DNA of 33,974 nt. It comes from an uncultured Endomicrobiia bacterium. Its GTDB lineage: Bacteria > Elusimicrobiota > Endomicrobiia > DTEH01. Under the pieces are notes generated by a model, which was not told the DNA's origin, did no database searches, and saw nothing but the letters and a program-made list of their open reading frames with translations. The position numbers were made by a program, and so were the translations under genes. The DNA lies in NCBI GenBank assembly GCA_937928765.1, contig CALFVX010000025.1, positions 1-33,974 on the forward strand, in the 5' to 3' direction. Below are positions 26,763 through 33,974 of the stretch, in pieces. How positions within the stretch are numbered: the first letter of the stretch is position 1; every line of letters starts with the position of its first letter.

Positions 26763-28934
26763 ATGTTCAAAAAAACTAAAACAATTTTTTTAATTTTTTT
26801 AATTTTTATTTTTTACTCTTATCTTTTTTCAACTTATTCAGGCAAAGATACAGCATTATTTTTAAAGTTCAATCCTGAAGCTAGTTCTGCATCAATGGGT
26901 GATACTTACCTTTTTTCAGCAAGTGGGATAAACAATCCAGCAACAGTTGGTTTAGTTTATCAACCGAGATTAACACTAAGTCATATAGAATGGGTGGAAG
27001 ATATTAAATATAGTTATTTATCTTTTGAAAGTCCATTTAGTTTTGGTAATTTAGGATTTTCATTGAGTTATCTTGGATATGGAGATATAAAGGGTATAGA
27101 TATGAATCTTGAGGAGTATAGTATTGCCCAGAGTTATGATATGTTATTTTCAATTTCTTATGGCAAGCAGATAGGTGTAGAGATTCCGGTTTATCGTGAA
27201 TATGGTTTAGTAGGTACAAACTTAAAATTTATAAAGAGTCAGTTAGCGCAATATTCAGCAGAATCAATAGCAATTGATTTAGGCACAATTGTTAATATAG
27301 GATTGATAACAGGGTTAGAGAAAATAGATAGATTAAGAGCATCATTAACATATAAAAATTTAGGTTCAAAGATGAAGTTTGTAAAGAAAGAAAATAGTTT
27401 ACCTAGTGGATTAAATTTTGGCATAGGCATAGATTATCCCCAATTAAAGAAGTTAGAGTTTGGTTTAGCAGTAGATATACCAGATAATAGCAATCCAGTA
27501 TATTCTTTAGGGTTTAGTATAACGCCGGTATATTTTTTAGTATTAAGGTGTGGATACAAACACACACATAATTCAGTTTCAGATGGGTTAACAGGCGGTT
27601 TTGGTGTTAATTTAGGTTCAGTGAGGTTTGACTATGCTGTTAAGCGATTTAGTGAATTTAAGACACTTGGAGGTTTAGGTTTGATACATCAAGTATCAAT
27701 AGGGATTGCTTTAGGAAGTTTTATAAATCAAGAGATTGCTTCAGAATATTATATTAAACAACATTTGAATAAGGCGTATGAGTTTTATTATCAGAAGGAA
27801 TACCAGTTGGCAAAAGAACGAATAAACGAGATTTTAAATATCTATTCAGATTATAAAGCAGCGATAGTATTACTTCAAAAGATAGAAAATACGATAAAAA
27901 AAGAAAACGAGGATAAAGAAAAACAAATTAATAATTGGTTGAAAAAAGCAGAAATTTTTTTAGAAAAGAAAGATTACATAAATTCAAAACGATATTATAC
28001 ACAAGTGTTGCGATTAGATAAAGAAAATACACAAGCACAACAAGGAATGCAAACTCTTCAAAAAGAAATTGAAAGTTTACAACAAGAAAGGATAAAACAA
28101 AAAAATGCAAAGAAAATAGAAAAAATCTGGCAGGAAGCTGTAAAAATTTACAAAGAAGGGAACTTCATAAAATCAAAGGAAAAATTTAAAGAAATACTTT
28201 TAATTGATCCTAATCACGAACCTACAAAAAATTATATAACAGAAATAGAAACACAGATTGCACTACTTAATGCAGAACAAATAAATAGTTTGTATTTACA
28301 AGGTGTAGAATTGTTTAATAATAAGAAATATCTAGAAGCATCAAAATATTTTGAAGCAGTAGTTTTAGCCTCACCAGATCGTATTGATGCAGGAGAGTAT
28401 TTAAAAAAGTGTAAACAAGCAATAGAAGAAGAAGAAGAAAGAAAGCGGCAAGAAGAAATAGCAAAACTTCAGAATGAAAATAGAAAAGAGATGGAGAGAA
28501 TTTTTATCACTTCGTTAAAGTTTTACGAAAAATCAGATTATATAAAAGCATTAGATATGTTTAATGAAGCTGTAAAGGTTGCAGAAAAGTATCAGTTTAA
28601 TGAATATCTTGAGAAGTCAAAGAATTACATAAATAACATAAAATTAGAACTTTCAGAACAATATTATAAAAAAGGCTATCAATTATACCAACAAAATAAA
28701 TTTGAACAAGCATATGAAGAATATTCAAAATCTCTACAATACAATCCCAACAATATTACAGTACAGAATGAAATAGGCAGGTTAAAAGAAAAACTAGCAC
28801 AGAAGTATTATGATATAGGAATTTCTTATTACACGAAAGGAGAAACAGAAAAAGCAAGAGAATTTTTCAATAGGTCGTTATATTATATGCCGAAAAAAGA
28901 AGAAACATTAAGAGCTCTTGAAAGGATAAAATAA
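26763..28934 (+). CDS. PorV/PorQ-family outer-membrane barrel with C-terminal TPR/coiled-coil domain
   Basis: A 723-residue exported protein. Residues 1-23 are a signal peptide. The barrel part (about 25-320) begins DTALFLKFNPEASSASMGDTYLFSA and INNPATVGLVYQPRLTLSHIEWVEDIKYSYLSF, the family signature of PorV/PorQ (UPF0164-type) proteins, and continues with alternating strands to LGLIHQVSIGIALGSF. From about 330 to the end it is helical: several TPR units (AYEFYYQKEYQLAKERINEIL; NSKRYYTQVLRLDKENTQAQ; ASKYFEAVVLASPDRIDAGEYL; AYEEYSKSLQYNPNN; AREFFNRSLYYMPKKEETL) with charged coiled-coil linkers. PorV proteins are known in type IX secretion and related surface display; that role here is inference, since no other secretion component is present. 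ATG follows AAGGAG. Confidence 0.86.
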   Translation: MFKKTKTIFLIFLIFIFYSYLFSTYSGKDTALFLKFNPEASSASMGDTYLFSASGINNPATVGLVYQPRLTLSHIEWVEDIKYSYLSFESPFSFGNLGFSLSYLGYGDIKGIDMNLEEYSIAQSYDMLFSISYGKQIGVEIPVYREYGLVGTNLKFIKSQLAQYSAESIAIDLGTIVNIGLITGLEKIDRLRASLTYKNLGSKMKFVKKENSLPSGLNFGIGIDYPQLKKLEFGLAVDIPDNSNPVYSLGFSITPVYFLVLRCGYKHTHNSVSDGLTGGFGVNLGSVRFDYAVKRFSEFKTLGGLGLIHQVSIGIALGSFINQEIASEYYIKQHLNKAYEFYYQKEYQLAKERINEILNIYSDYKAAIVLLQKIENTIKKENEDKEKQINNWLKKAEIFLEKKDYINSKRYYTQVLRLDKENTQAQQGMQTLQKEIESLQQERIKQKNAKKIEKIWQEAVKIYKEGNFIKSKEKFKEILLIDPNHEPTKNYITEIETQIALLNAEQINSLYLQGVELFNNKKYLEASKYFEAVVLASPDRIDAGEYLKKCKQAIEEEEERKRQEEIAKLQNENRKEMERIFITSLKFYEKSDYIKALDMFNEAVKVAEKYQFNEYLEKSKNYINNIKLELSEQYYKKGYQLYQQNKFEQAYEEYSKSLQYNPNNITVQNEIGRLKEKLAQKYYDIGISYYTKGETEKAREFFNRSLYYMPKKEETLRALERIK

Positions 28935-29021: not shown

Positions 29022-31850
29022 ATGGAAAAAATATTTAAAAAAACGATATTATTTTTTGTTTACATATTATTTTTAAGTATTTTTGAATTATATTCAGAAG
29101 CACCGAATTTGATAAACTATCAGGGTAGGCTAAGAGAGAATGGACAGCCAGCACAAGGGACAAAGAATATGGAATTCAGGATATATAATGCACAGACAGG
29201 AGGAACACCTATTTGGAGTTCAGGCCAGGTCCAAGTTTTAGTATCAACGGGAATATTTAGTTACCAATTAAATCCCACAGGGATAGATTGGTCAAAAGGG
29301 ACATATTATTTAGAACTTGCTATAGAAGGTGTCACATTAACTCCCAGAGAGAGGTTTGTATCAGTTCCGTATGCATTTGAAGCAAACACATTGTCAGGAA
29401 GGACATACGAAGCGTTTGTATCAACCTGGGGTGTTAATCAGACAATAGGTGGCATAAAAACATTCACAAGCAGTGTCACGATAACAGGATCTGGTGGTTT
29501 GGGTGTAAGTTATGGTATTGTTGCAGGGACAATAACTTTGACAGGGATACCTCCTTCAATTAAACGAAATGTAGCTAATGAATCATTAGATTTATATGGT
29601 GGAAATACAGCAGATGGTGCCCGGCTTAGGTTGTTTGGTCATCAGGAAGGGTATGGCAATGCAGGCTGTGCTGAATTATGGTTAGCCAATCAGCCAATTT
29701 CAAGATTTAGAGTTAGAGGATACTGGCAAAATCCTGATACCCGACTTACAGTTTGGTCACAGGGTGGTGTAAGAGTTGGCTCAACAGACGCAGACCCTGG
29801 GATAAACAATCTTGCAGTTGATGGTCAACTTATAGTAGTTGGCACAACAACAATTCAAGGAAACGCCTTTTCCGTAGGCGGTTCAACATTTGTAGTTACC
29901 GCAGGCAACATCGGCATCGGGACGACGGGACCTACTCAAAGGTTAACTGTTGCCGGGAATATCGGAATTCAATTTGGAGCTAATGCGTTTATTGGAACTT
30001 TGGATAATTATGCTTTGAGGTTGAGAACAAATAATGCAGACAGGGTGTATATAACAAATACAGGCAACATCGGCATTGGGACGACGGCACCATCACATAG
30101 ATTGAGGGTAGAAGGTGGTATAATTGCAACATCAAGTATAACAGCGAATGGCGGTTTTTACGGTGATGGTTCTGGGCTTACGAATATAGTAGCAAGTCAA
30201 GTGCCGGCAAGCGGAGTTCAAGCGGGAGCACTTGGTAGTGGAGTAATAGCGAGTTCGATAGCTGTGAATGCAGTGCATACAGCTGCGATACAAGACAATG
30301 CAGTGACAAATGCAAAGGTATCAAGTATAGATGCGTCAAAGATAACTAGTGGTAATTTGGCAATAGCGCGGATGCCTACAGGTGGTAATTGGGCGATAAG
30401 TAGCAATTTAAGCATAGCAGGTTCAACATTTGTAGTAACAACCTCAGGCAATGTCGGCATCGGGACGACGAATCCTACGGCGAGATTGGAAGTTGCAGGG
30501 CAGATAAAAATTACAGGTGGTTCACCAGGAGCAGGTAAGGTTTTAACTTCTGATGCAAGCGGTTTAGCAAGTTGGCAGACGCCGACAGGAGGTTTGCCTT
30601 CTGGAACTTCTGGTCAGACACTCCGGCATGATGGCACAAATTGGGTAGCCAATAGCGTTTTATTCAACAACGGCACCAACGTCGGCATTGGGACGACGGC
30701 ACCAGCTCAAAAATTGCATGTAGCAGGAAAAATTCAGGTTGGAAATGATGCCGCAACAGCTACAGCAGGCACTATTCGCTGGACTGGTACAAACTTTGAG
30801 GGTTTTGACGGAAGTGTTTGGAAGACGTTAGATGTTCAATCTACAAGTGGTGGTGGTTGGACCGAGGATGTGGGAGGTAATAGGGTTTATGTTACAAATA
30901 CCGCTCGCAATGTCGGCATCGGGACGACGACACCGGGGGCAAAGTTGGAAGTTAACAATACGATTTCAGGAAACTCAAGAGGAGGAATTATAATAAACAG
31001 AGTAGACAACACGAATTATGAGGCTGCTTTAATGTTTAAGACAGGCAATACTTTAGATTGGTGGTTTGGAACTGATAACGATGCCACAAATAAGTTATAT
31101 ATTTGGCGAAGTGTTCCGGGATTTGTCCAAACGTGGGATACAAGCGGCAACGTCGGCATCGGGACGACGGATCCAAGTCAAAGGTTGCATGTGGTAGGGA
31201 ATGCGACAATATCAGACAACGTCGGCATCGGGACGACGGGGCCGGTATGGAGAACAGATATCCGTAGTACTTTAGGAGTCGCAAGCGCCGTGGCTTCTCC
31301 CGCAAACTTTTTAGCAATATGGGCTGATAGCGACACAGACCATCCGGTGATCGTCTATCCTTCAACAAAACGTTTGAGAATTGGGACATGGACGAGTTAT
31401 ACCGGTACAGGTTGGGCTGAGAGAGTTAGTATTGATTCAGCAGGCAACGTCGGCATCGGAACGACGAGTCCAACACAAAAATTATACGTAGTAGGAAACA
31501 TATATGCTACTGGAAGTTGCAGTGGTGGTTCAGATATAAGGTGGAAGAAAGACATAAAGCCATTGGGTAAAGTTTTAGACAAGCTGGTACACATTAATGG
31601 TGTAATTTACAGGTGGAATAAAGAAGAATATCCAGATTTAAATTTTGATGACAAAGAGCATATAGGTTTAATAGCGCAGGAAGTAGAGAAATATTTTCCA
31701 GAGGTTGTAGATACAAATTCAGATGGATACAAATCTCTTGATTATAGTAGGATTACAGTGATATTATTAGAAGCAATCAAAGAGCAACAAAAACAGATAG
31801 AAGAACTTACACTACAAATAAACAAATTAAAGGAGTATATAAAACAATGA
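29022..31850 (+). CDS. Exported fibre-like repeat protein with C-terminal S74 self-cleaving chaperone domain
   Basis: A 942-residue surface protein. Residues 1-27 form a signal peptide. Residues 28-126 are a conserved N-terminal domain (NLINYQGRLRENGQPAQG to SVPYAFEANTLSG) common in exported proteins of uncultured diderms. Residues about 260-830 are beta-rich with eight GN(V/I)GIGTT repeats at residues 296, 349, 477, 553, 630, 710, 733 and 809. Residues 835-942 are an Intramolecular Chaperone Auto-processing domain (Peptidase S74): GSDIRWKKDI matches SDxRxKxxI with catalytic Ser837 and Lys842 five residues apart, as in phage endosialidase. It ends in a trimeric-looking coiled coil (EAIKEQQKQIEELTLQINKLK). 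The protein probably trimerises and cleaves itself before Ser837. ATG is 7 nt after AAAGGAGG. The gene is noticeably richer in G and C than its neighbours. Confidence 0.9.
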   Translation: MEKIFKKTILFFVYILFLSIFELYSEAPNLINYQGRLRENGQPAQGTKNMEFRIYNAQTGGTPIWSSGQVQVLVSTGIFSYQLNPTGIDWSKGTYYLELAIEGVTLTPRERFVSVPYAFEANTLSGRTYEAFVSTWGVNQTIGGIKTFTSSVTITGSGGLGVSYGIVAGTITLTGIPPSIKRNVANESLDLYGGNTADGARLRLFGHQEGYGNAGCAELWLANQPISRFRVRGYWQNPDTRLTVWSQGGVRVGSTDADPGINNLAVDGQLIVVGTTTIQGNAFSVGGSTFVVTAGNIGIGTTGPTQRLTVAGNIGIQFGANAFIGTLDNYALRLRTNNADRVYITNTGNIGIGTTAPSHRLRVEGGIIATSSITANGGFYGDGSGLTNIVASQVPASGVQAGALGSGVIASSIAVNAVHTAAIQDNAVTNAKVSSIDASKITSGNLAIARMPTGGNWAISSNLSIAGSTFVVTTSGNVGIGTTNPTARLEVAGQIKITGGSPGAGKVLTSDASGLASWQTPTGGLPSGTSGQTLRHDGTNWVANSVLFNNGTNVGIGTTAPAQKLHVAGKIQVGNDAATATAGTIRWTGTNFEGFDGSVWKTLDVQSTSGGGWTEDVGGNRVYVTNTARNVGIGTTTPGAKLEVNNTISGNSRGGIIINRVDNTNYEAALMFKTGNTLDWWFGTDNDATNKLYIWRSVPGFVQTWDTSGNVGIGTTDPSQRLHVVGNATISDNVGIGTTGPVWRTDIRSTLGVASAVASPANFLAIWADSDTDHPVIVYPSTKRLRIGTWTSYTGTGWAERVSIDSAGNVGIGTTSPTQKLYVVGNIYATGSCSGGSDIRWKKDIKPLGKVLDKLVHINGVIYRWNKEEYPDLNFDDKEHIGLIAQEVEKYFPEVVDTNSDGYKSLDYSRITVILLEAIKEQQKQIEELTLQINKLKEYIKQ
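29907..31466 (+). repeat. Eight copies of a GC-rich 21-bp in-frame repeat (N-V/I-G-I-G-T-T)
   Basis: The copies are at 29907-29927, 30066-30086, 30450-30470, 30678-30698, 30909-30929, 31149-31169, 31218-31238 and 31446-31466. The core GTCGGCATCGGGACGACG, preceded by AAC or AAT, varies at only a few bases: ATC for GTC in the first two copies, ATT for ATC in copies 2 and 4, GGA for GGG in the last. It is about two-thirds G+C, using GGC, GGG, ATC, GTC and ACG codons that are scarce in the surrounding AT-rich genes. Distances are all multiples of three (69 to 384 nt). A second, AT-rich repeat, GTTCAACATTTGTAGT, precedes copies 1 and 3. Confidence 0.92.
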
Positions 31851-31999: not shown

Positions 32000-32060
32000 A
32001 ATAAACCACATGAGTAATTTAACTTCTAATAAAACAAAAATTTGCCATATGTGGGTTTAT
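32000..32060 (+). repeat. Imperfect inverted repeat covering the upstream ATG of the FN3 gene
   Basis: ATAAACCACAT (32000-32010) and ATGTGGGTTTAT (32049-32060) are complementary apart from one unpaired G, with a 38-nt loop. The right arm contains the ATG at 32049. If formed in RNA it would hide that start, either regulating translation or showing that the gene really starts downstream. Confidence 0.5.
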
Positions 32061-33974
32061 AAAAATTTAAGTTTAATAATTGTTGGTTGGTTTAATCTTG
32101 TTAGAATTTGGTTAAATTTGTTAAAATTTTCAAAGTATGAATTTTTTGTTTTATTTTTTTGTTTTATTTCAAATTTTTTGTTTGCTGGATACAAATCGGC
32201 TGGAAGTTATGAGATAATTACAGATGTATTTTCTACTGCTGGAAATACAACTTCATCACAGCAATATTTAAATGATTCCTCATTAATAAGTTTTTCAACT
32301 TTTTATGATGTTATTGGTTCAACAGAAGTAATAAGTGGATATTTGCAGAACATAAACAACCTGCCTTTGGTTTTTCTTACAACGCCGTATAATGAAACCT
32401 GGGCAGAAGATGATACAGTTTTGTTTAAGTGGGAATATTTTGACTATGATAACAACAGTCAAGCAAAATTTCAAGTGGTTTTATCAACCACAGCAGATTT
32501 TAGCGGTACTGACTATGGTTCAGGTATAGTTAGTTCAAGTTCAACCCAGTGGGAAAGTTTTCCTCTTGACAGTGCGACATATTACTGGTATGTTAAAGTT
32601 TGGGATAGCGATTGGTATGAGTATAGTTTTTCTACATATAGTTTGAAATTTTTCTGTGTTGATAAGACAAGTCCAACATTACAAATAGTTAATTGGGATA
32701 TAAATATGAGTTCAATAACAGTTTATGTAGAAGCAACTGATACAGGTTCAGGACTACATTCTTTGCCATACAGGTTTCATATATCTACATCATCAAATTT
32801 TGAAACAAACATAACAACAACGACTTCCTGGGTGGCTCAGTCATCATGGACATTTACAGGTCTTACATATAATACAACTTACTATTTTAAAGTTCAAGCG
32901 AGAGATAAGTTTTATAATACGACAACAGTTGTCCAGCCTAAGGTAACTTTGGCTACACCACCAAAACTTTCAGCAAACCCATGGCAAACTATAACAAATA
33001 CTTCAATTCAGGTAAGTTGGGCCCTTGATGAGACACCACCAAATCCTGACAATACAATTTATGCGGTAGAAATTTCAAGTGATATAAATTTTTCTTTTAT
33101 TTTTAGTTCTTCTGGTATAAAGACAGACCAACAATTGACAGTTTCAGGTCTTACACCAAACACCACATATTATGCCCGTGTTGTTGCATATAATTGGGAA
33201 GGAACGCCTGCTTCAACATATTTATCTGGCTGGCATGCAACTTTGTGTAGCACACCTTCAGCTAATTGGTCAAGTATATGGGTTACTAGTATGGTGGTAA
33301 GTTGGACAAATCCTTTTCCGAGTAATCCTTTGAATACAAAATATATAGTAGAACTCTCAAGCACAAACTTTGTTTCAGGTCAGGTGTATTCAAGTTCAAC
33401 AGTTTGTGGAGTATATAGTTCAACTATAACAGGTTTATCAGCAAACACAACATATTATGCAAGGGTAAAAGCAGTAAACTGGGAAGGCGAAATTCAGATG
33501 CAGAATTTAGCAATACCAAAGTCAACTTTAGCAAATCTACCTTTGATGGATAGGTTTTCCAACATTACAAATACATCTATAACAATAAACTGGCAGGCGA
33601 ATGGTAATCCAGAATGGACAAAGTATTATGTTCAGGTATCAAGTTATGGCAGTTTTAGCCCTCCAAGTAGTGATGGTTATACATATAATTTATATTTTAC
33701 AACAAGTGGTTTAATTCCAAATACAACATATTGGTTTAGGGTTCAATCAATAAATAATGAAGGTGTTGGTAGTGGATGGATGGGTCCTGTTTCAACTCAT
33801 ACATTGTGTAGTGAACCGTCTAACTTGAGTTGGTCAACTATAACATCAACAACGATACAGGTTAGTTGGGGTTCATCTGAACCTGACAATCCTTTGGATA
33901 CAATATATATAGTAGAAATTTCTACTATGGACAATTTCACAGGTGTAATATATAGTAGTCAAACAACGAGGGGT
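32049..33974 (+). CDS. Large exported fibronectin type III repeat protein (3' partial)
   Basis: An uninterrupted frame of 642 codons that runs off the right edge. The N-terminus has a hydrophobic export signal ending near FLFA-GYKSAG. A TTG at 32118 would give a compact 23-residue signal peptide, whereas ATG at 32049 adds a second hydrophobic stretch; neither has a good ribosome-binding site. Residues about 47-105 form a short domain (SAGSYEIITDVFSTAGNTTSS) of a type seen in other exported proteins of uncultured bacteria. FN3-like modules then follow at about 108-205, 206-300, 300-400, 400-495, 495-587 and 587 to the edge, each with a TxTSIxVSW strand and a GLTPNTTYYxRVxAxNxEG ending. It is probably a surface adhesin or stalk, displayed together with the S74 and PorV proteins. 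The C-terminal anchoring or sorting signal lies beyond the window. Confidence 0.85.
   Translation, partial: MWVYKNLSLIIVGWFNLVRIWLNLLKFSKYEFFVLFFCFISNFLFAGYKSAGSYEIITDVFSTAGNTTSSQQYLNDSSLISFSTFYDVIGSTEVISGYLQNINNLPLVFLTTPYNETWAEDDTVLFKWEYFDYDNNSQAKFQVVLSTTADFSGTDYGSGIVSSSSTQWESFPLDSATYYWYVKVWDSDWYEYSFSTYSLKFFCVDKTSPTLQIVNWDINMSSITVYVEATDTGSGLHSLPYRFHISTSSNFETNITTTTSWVAQSSWTFTGLTYNTTYYFKVQARDKFYNTTTVVQPKVTLATPPKLSANPWQTITNTSIQVSWALDETPPNPDNTIYAVEISSDINFSFIFSSSGIKTDQQLTVSGLTPNTTYYARVVAYNWEGTPASTYLSGWHATLCSTPSANWSSIWVTSMVVSWTNPFPSNPLNTKYIVELSSTNFVSGQVYSSSTVCGVYSSTITGLSANTTYYARVKAVNWEGEIQMQNLAIPKSTLANLPLMDRFSNITNTSITINWQANGNPEWTKYYVQVSSYGSFSPPSSDGYTYNLYFTTSGLIPNTTYWFRVQSINNEGVGSGWMGPVSTHTLCSEPSNLSWSTITSTTIQVSWGSSEPDNPLDTIYIVEISTMDNFTGVIYSSQTTRG

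Follow-up and report, generated by a model that had tools for sequence, protein, structure and literature searches.

How do ultrasmall symbionts, archaea and phages alter their attachment fibres? The question is raised here by a stretch of 33,974 nucleotides (the window), which is one entire contig of a 1.54 Mb Elusimicrobiota MAG and carries an AT-rich surface-fibre gene in which a short motif recurs almost unchanged, including at its third codon positions. Why should synonymous sites be conserved in so short a segment? An earlier note on this DNA had listed as candidate explanations recombination or gene conversion, import from a GC-richer donor, and a function of the DNA or RNA itself, such as a translation pause. 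Recombination is the candidate that held up, while GC-rich import and a universal DNA or RNA function or translation pause did not. A seam that can be searched for at the DNA level permits direct mapping of cassette exchange across domains and of the fibre parts that were interchanged, and also allows the minimum common sequence for module swapping to be tested.

The fibre gene and its anchor copies

The gene encodes a 942-residue protein whose C-terminus matches Peptidase_S74 (62.4 bits against a 22-bit cut-off, 4.8e-17) and whose N-terminus, judged by eye, is signal-like. Its PHROG relatives are phage tail-fibre families, and its PDB relatives are 6f45, 8ond and 8ojn, among them a phage long tail fibre and two Bdellovibrio MAT fibres. 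PDB entry 8ond is Bd2133; 8ojn carries the label 'cell wall surface anchor family protein' and is taken by us to be Bd3182. Since these relatives are trimeric fibres, a trimeric beta-helix fold is putative for the window protein. The features of the gene are as follows.

29022..31850, + strand: 942-aa surface-fibre gene (S74/MAT-like), from the ORF, Peptidase_S74 match, PHROG and PDB relatives
29904..29927, + strand: anchor 1, GGCAACATCGGCATCGGGACGACG
29928..30062, + strand: cassette 1, common to a phage fibre gene from anchor to anchor
30063..30086, + strand: anchor 2, GGCAACATCGGCATTGGGACGACG
30447..30470, + strand: anchor 3, GGCAATGTCGGCATCGGGACGACG
30675..30698, + strand: anchor 4, preceding codon ACC rather than GGC
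30906..30929, + strand: anchor 5, preceding codon CGC
31146..31169, + strand: anchor 6, GGCAACGTCGGCATCGGGACGACG, exact consensus
31215..31238, + strand: anchor 7, preceding codon GAC
31443..31466, + strand: anchor 8, GGCAACGTCGGCATCGGAACGACG
31530..31709, + strand: Peptidase_S74 intramolecular chaperone domain, residues 837-896, C-terminal

A search for GTCGGCATCGGGACGACG with 0-2 mismatches returned eight copies, at 29910, 30069, 30453, 30681, 30912, 31152, 31221 and 31449, all on the + strand and in frame, and 0 copies in 100 shuffles. No other site in the 1.54 Mb genome encodes GIGTT. The three nearest sampled genomes, which belong to the same genus or family (G088, G039 and G052), have no NxGIGTT site, and the fibre gene is therefore probably accessory in its lineage.

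The S74/MAT fibre protein family is already known. As described in PMC10769870, the S74 subgroup of Bdellovibrio MAT proteins (8ond Bd2133, 8ojn) consists of surface-exported trimeric beta-helix fibres with an S74 end and mosaic composition, and their repeated capping loop, V-G-G/N-pi-x-x-P-x-x-x-L, is the peptide corresponding to the window motif. The window fibre resembles them in its S74 end, its mosaic composition and its repeated loop: eight N-V/I-G-I-G-T-T-x-P loops, most of them followed by x-x-x-L, align to Bd2133. The difference is one of level: PMC10769870 treats a protein mosaic, its text gave no match to the word 'nucleotide', and the passages considered here mention no DNA anchor.

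Two neighbouring genes were also observed, a TPR protein at 26763-28934 with a PorV-like N-terminus that falls below threshold, and a fibronectin-III repeat protein at 32010-33974 that is interrupted by the contig end. Together with the fibre gene they possibly form a surface gene cluster.

Synonymous-site conservation ends at the anchor edge

The eight near-identical copies with GC-ending codons lie where the earlier note had placed them. Third-position GC content drops from 0.91 in the motif to 0.29 in the remainder of the fibre gene and 0.15 in neighbouring genes, so the gene as a whole is not GC-rich; nor do GIGTT sites across the genome have random codons. Codon identity among the copies reaches 0.83, where the remainder of the gene would predict 0.42. 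Because the residue before the motif, where it is Gly, is always encoded by GGC (10/10 pairs), the conserved unit is 24 bp, slightly longer than first noted, and reads GGC-AAY-RTC-GGC-ATC-GGG-ACG-ACG. Conservation stops at the last ACG: an invariant Pro one residue later is at background (0.29 vs 0.28), and the codons adjoining each motif show host-like, AT-rich usage, which speaks against a GC-richer donor of the gene.

The same boundary was found in unselected samples, for which loci were retrieved by peptide with any codon permitted; exact 18-mer scans are sequence-selected and were excluded from the codon statistics, but their loci were included in the breakpoint tests below. In the unselected samples the same anchor columns have more consensus codons than the usage of each gene itself would give. 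In the phage and Patescibacteria samples, the two larger ones, the codons of conserved P, K, L, V and G residues further out are at background or close to it; the Elusimicrobiota sample is small, with loci that overlap. A preference for particular codon pairs was considered and rejected, since GGG-ACG makes up 14% of Gly-Thr pairs in the motif and 2% of those elsewhere in the same phage genes (33% and 6% in Patescibacteria). The anchor sequence is not frozen: third positions account for 733 of the 959 mismatches in near matches of genomic loci. Its reading frame is held in 522/531 genomic and 340/340 viral matches.

Taxonomic spread and local dialects

The 24-mer is kept nearly unchanged in many unrelated bacteria, tiny archaea and phages, and two collections together hold substantially more than 100 stretches that contain it. 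Relative to own-gene expectation, the enrichment of consensus codons has a z of 15.9 in Nanoarchaeota, 13.2 in phages, 10.0 in Patescibacteria and 6.1 in Elusimicrobiota, though these z-values take copies as independent and hence overstate certainty. Bacteroidota (z -0.2) and Planctomycetota (0.4) show no such enrichment for an identical peptide. Some phage genes use other, locally uniform dialects, for example GTA-GGT-ATT-GGT-ACT-ACT, and in them the excess codon identity falls on the motif and the next residue. One Bacteroidia genome has genes in the perfect dialect as well as genes that encode the identical peptide with ordinary codons. These three observations argue against a general constraint at the level of protein, translation or RNA, and the combination of lineage-limited codons with local dialects favours homogenisation inside a gene pool.

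One variant in phages extends a codon further. In genes L256, L262, L280 and L360, which have another dialect, ACT-AGT follows the second Thr, and AGT after the second Thr occurs at 57% in phages where 25% is expected.

The window gene as a mosaic

The cassettes between the window anchors are mutually unrelated and AT-rich right to the anchor edge. Cassette 1 is shared with a fibre gene on phage contig IMGVR_UViG_3300031463_000044, which also has a match to a major head protein family. The two copies have the same 159-bp anchor spacing and are 77% identical in DNA and 83% in protein from anchor to anchor; outside the anchors identity drops to 0.18-0.28 on the left and to 0.40 and then 0.18 on the right. 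Among the loci fetched, most of them fetched as anchor carriers, the nearest relatives of cassette 3 are in Parcubacteria, Flavobacteriales, Omnitrophota and other Elusimicrobiota, that of cassette 4 in Poribacteria and that of cassette 5, weakly, a Nanoarchaeota gene; the N-terminus is nearest to Elusimicrobiota and the C-terminus to a Bacteroidia gene. The viral search gave no relatives of cassette 5, and relatives of the L189 phage fibre lack the motif within the stretches fetched. The anchor marks the seams at which parts of fibre genes were exchanged from gene to gene and, it appears, from phylum to phylum.

Homology breakpoints and individual exchange events

Breakpoints of homology fall at the motif 3-4 times as often as at control positions. 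When the motifs were masked to keep them from aiding detection, the one-sided homologies that abut the motif numbered 70, and those at five control offsets 11-24; the 70 represent 47 gene pairs, and 16 of them come from a single phage gene, L152. Longer regions of ten genomes gave 32 breakpoints at the motif and 6-11 at six offsets. Within genes, anchors at breakpoints have fewer mismatches than other anchors (2.42 vs 3.25, p about 0.05), but at older cross-contig breakpoints they are no more alike than the remaining anchors of those genes (3.93 vs 3.73). Flanking anchors are identical in the events of L152 and of the archaeon GW2011_AR5, whereas those bounding a recent cassette copy in the Patescibacteria genome G241 (98% over 435 bp) differ at several bases. 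The imperfect anchors of G241, together with the lack of excess similarity at older cross-contig breakpoints, indicate that protein-level selection of joins may contribute.

The AR5 genome provides the sharpest junctions. Gene B (about 191 kb) and gene A (about 105 kb), which are 86 kb apart, share a 162-bp cassette and both of its anchors at 100% identity, while the 90 bp outside the shared cassette are 0.28-0.29 identical. At the second anchor, gene B turns to gene C (about 113 kb), with 95% identity over 231 bp and 0.26 on the other side. In these alignments gene B is a mosaic with crossovers inside the anchor. In Bacteroidia, a KatS3mg027 gene whose S74 end is the closest found to that of the window is 78.5% identical to a native paralogue over 377 bp and divergent from about 9 bp before the first anchor. 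The KatS3mg prefix points to a PacBio HiFi project on the Katase hot spring (PMC9671151), and the record is probably long-read in origin, although the text of PMC9671151 does not carry its name. The breakpoints, the AR5 junctions, the phage cassette and the Bacteroidia gene lend strong support to a proposal of the earlier note, in-frame swapping of modules by recombination or gene conversion among the copies and with related genes.

A proposed mechanism and its alternatives

We consider it likely that this DNA has two roles, coding for a beta-helix capping loop and acting as a short homology anchor for in-frame shuffling of cassettes. The 24-bp unit would encode the capping loop (N-V-G-I-G-T-T-x-P) of each trimeric beta-helix module of an S74/MAT-type fibre, and the gene pool that carries it would comprise Patescibacteria, DPANN archaea, Elusimicrobiota, phages and scattered other phyla. 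General homologous recombination, by RecA/RadA or phage annealases, would cross over inside the anchor. The cassette between two anchors could then be duplicated, deleted or exchanged for another without loss of frame, whether inside one gene or from one gene to another and, once DNA has been transferred, from one organism to another. Successive crossovers would keep the anchor uniform and leave the cassettes of separate origin to its left and right free to diverge, and anchors that no longer exchange would drift towards local codon usage. Joins at the anchor can yield working proteins because the matching MAT peptide is a capping loop. The placement of the breakpoints is observed, and RecA/RadA is the presumed enzyme; RecA-type exchange has a minimum near 20-25 bp, and a RecA/RadA-family protein is present in 6/6 genomes checked. 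Homogenisation by crossover would be what keeps the codons, and diversity of adhesion would be the benefit.

On a bolder reading, which we offer tentatively and regard as somewhat doubtful, the 24-bp anchor would define a common pool of interchangeable fibre cassettes, one that moves among phages, ultrasmall bacteria, DPANN archaea and other phyla. Adhesin parts of different domains could then be spliced at one DNA seam, possibly with the help of a candidate anchor-recognising factor.

The most serious competitor, though in our judgement an unlikely one, is modularity of the protein only, with shared codons as remnants of recent spread by non-homologous joining and only joins at capping loops able to fold. 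The structural identity of the peptide agrees with it, as do the chance-level anchor similarity at older breakpoints and the imperfect anchors of the G241 copy, but it does not account for anchor codons being conserved when conserved residues just outside are at background, nor for AR5 identity that begins and ends at the edges of identical anchors. Still less probable is selection on the DNA or RNA sequence itself, as a translation signal or as a binding site for a candidate anchor-specific recombination factor. That lineages of different domains share the codons, and that all other synonymous versions are less widespread, would fit such selection; the differing phage dialects, the ordinary codons of Bacteroidota and Planctomycetota and the drift of third positions do not. 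The motif is also almost never out of frame, and no hairpin was supported, as mRNA stability is not unusual and covariation at hairpin pairs is no better than at control pairs. A site-specific recombinase was rejected because no tyrosine or serine recombinase is consistently present among the genomes checked: neither PF00589 nor PF00239 has a match in AR5, the two PF00589 genes of the window genome lie on contigs other than that of the fibre gene, and a serine recombinase was not found in 5/6 genomes.

We give very little weight to an assembly or binning artefact, in which metagenome chimeras were joined at a short repeat. Most sequences analysed are indeed MAGs and the repeat is short, but the anchor recurs throughout two collections, an anchor junction is also found in the probably long-read Bacteroidia record, and the phage-shared cassette, being only 77% identical, is not a copied read. 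Least credible of all is the simple recent arrival of a GC-rich gene, or a recent tandem duplication of entire repeat units. It would explain GC-rich copies within an AT-rich genome, but the unrelated cassettes with AT-rich flanks contradict a GC-rich donor, and phyla have the anchor in common but not what flanks it. Divergence after duplication fails to explain anchor conservation, as the synonymous sites of the anchor have a history different from that of the adjacent codons; crossover inside the anchor can produce this difference.

Relation to known systems

Literature searches on fibre shuffling, with subscription journals mostly outside their scope, found neither a report of the DNA anchor nor the string VGIGTT. 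One precedent is in phage tail fibres such as T-even gp37, which exchange modules through conserved motifs. Domain mosaicism is also described for phage receptor-binding proteins (PMC10684548). In both settings short common sequences in fibre genes are module-exchange sites, and the breakpoints are here likewise concentrated at a common short sequence. The known cases, however, are among related phages, whereas here one 24-bp version is common to phages, DPANN archaea and several phyla of bacteria, and sits in cellular genes with eight or more copies each.

Shufflons and tail-fibre invertases (R64 pilV/Rci, Gin/Cin) depend on a recombinase of their own, and inversion is their main mode of action. 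They are similar in that short DNA-conserved repeats of an adhesin gene alternate with variable segments, but here all sites within a gene are direct repeats, as are the eight + strand copies of the window, and no recombinase is consistently present among the genomes checked. Diversity-generating retroelements likewise diversify surface proteins of phages and symbionts, including Patescibacteria and DPANN; they mutate adenines of one variable region, whereas here whole cassettes are swapped, and this candidate was rejected, the window genome having no PF00078 match (reverse transcriptase). Reverse transcriptases were observed in three anchor-bearing genomes (G105:C2:54108, G241:C19:20663 and G103:C10:40729).

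A second fibre repeat, SNTTGxxNTANGxxAL, was seen in phage and Patescibacteria fibre genes (L133, L155, L183 and L419). Its identity at four-fold sites between contigs is about 0.55-0.94, where about 0.25-0.30 is expected, and it may be a second DNA-homogenised repeat.
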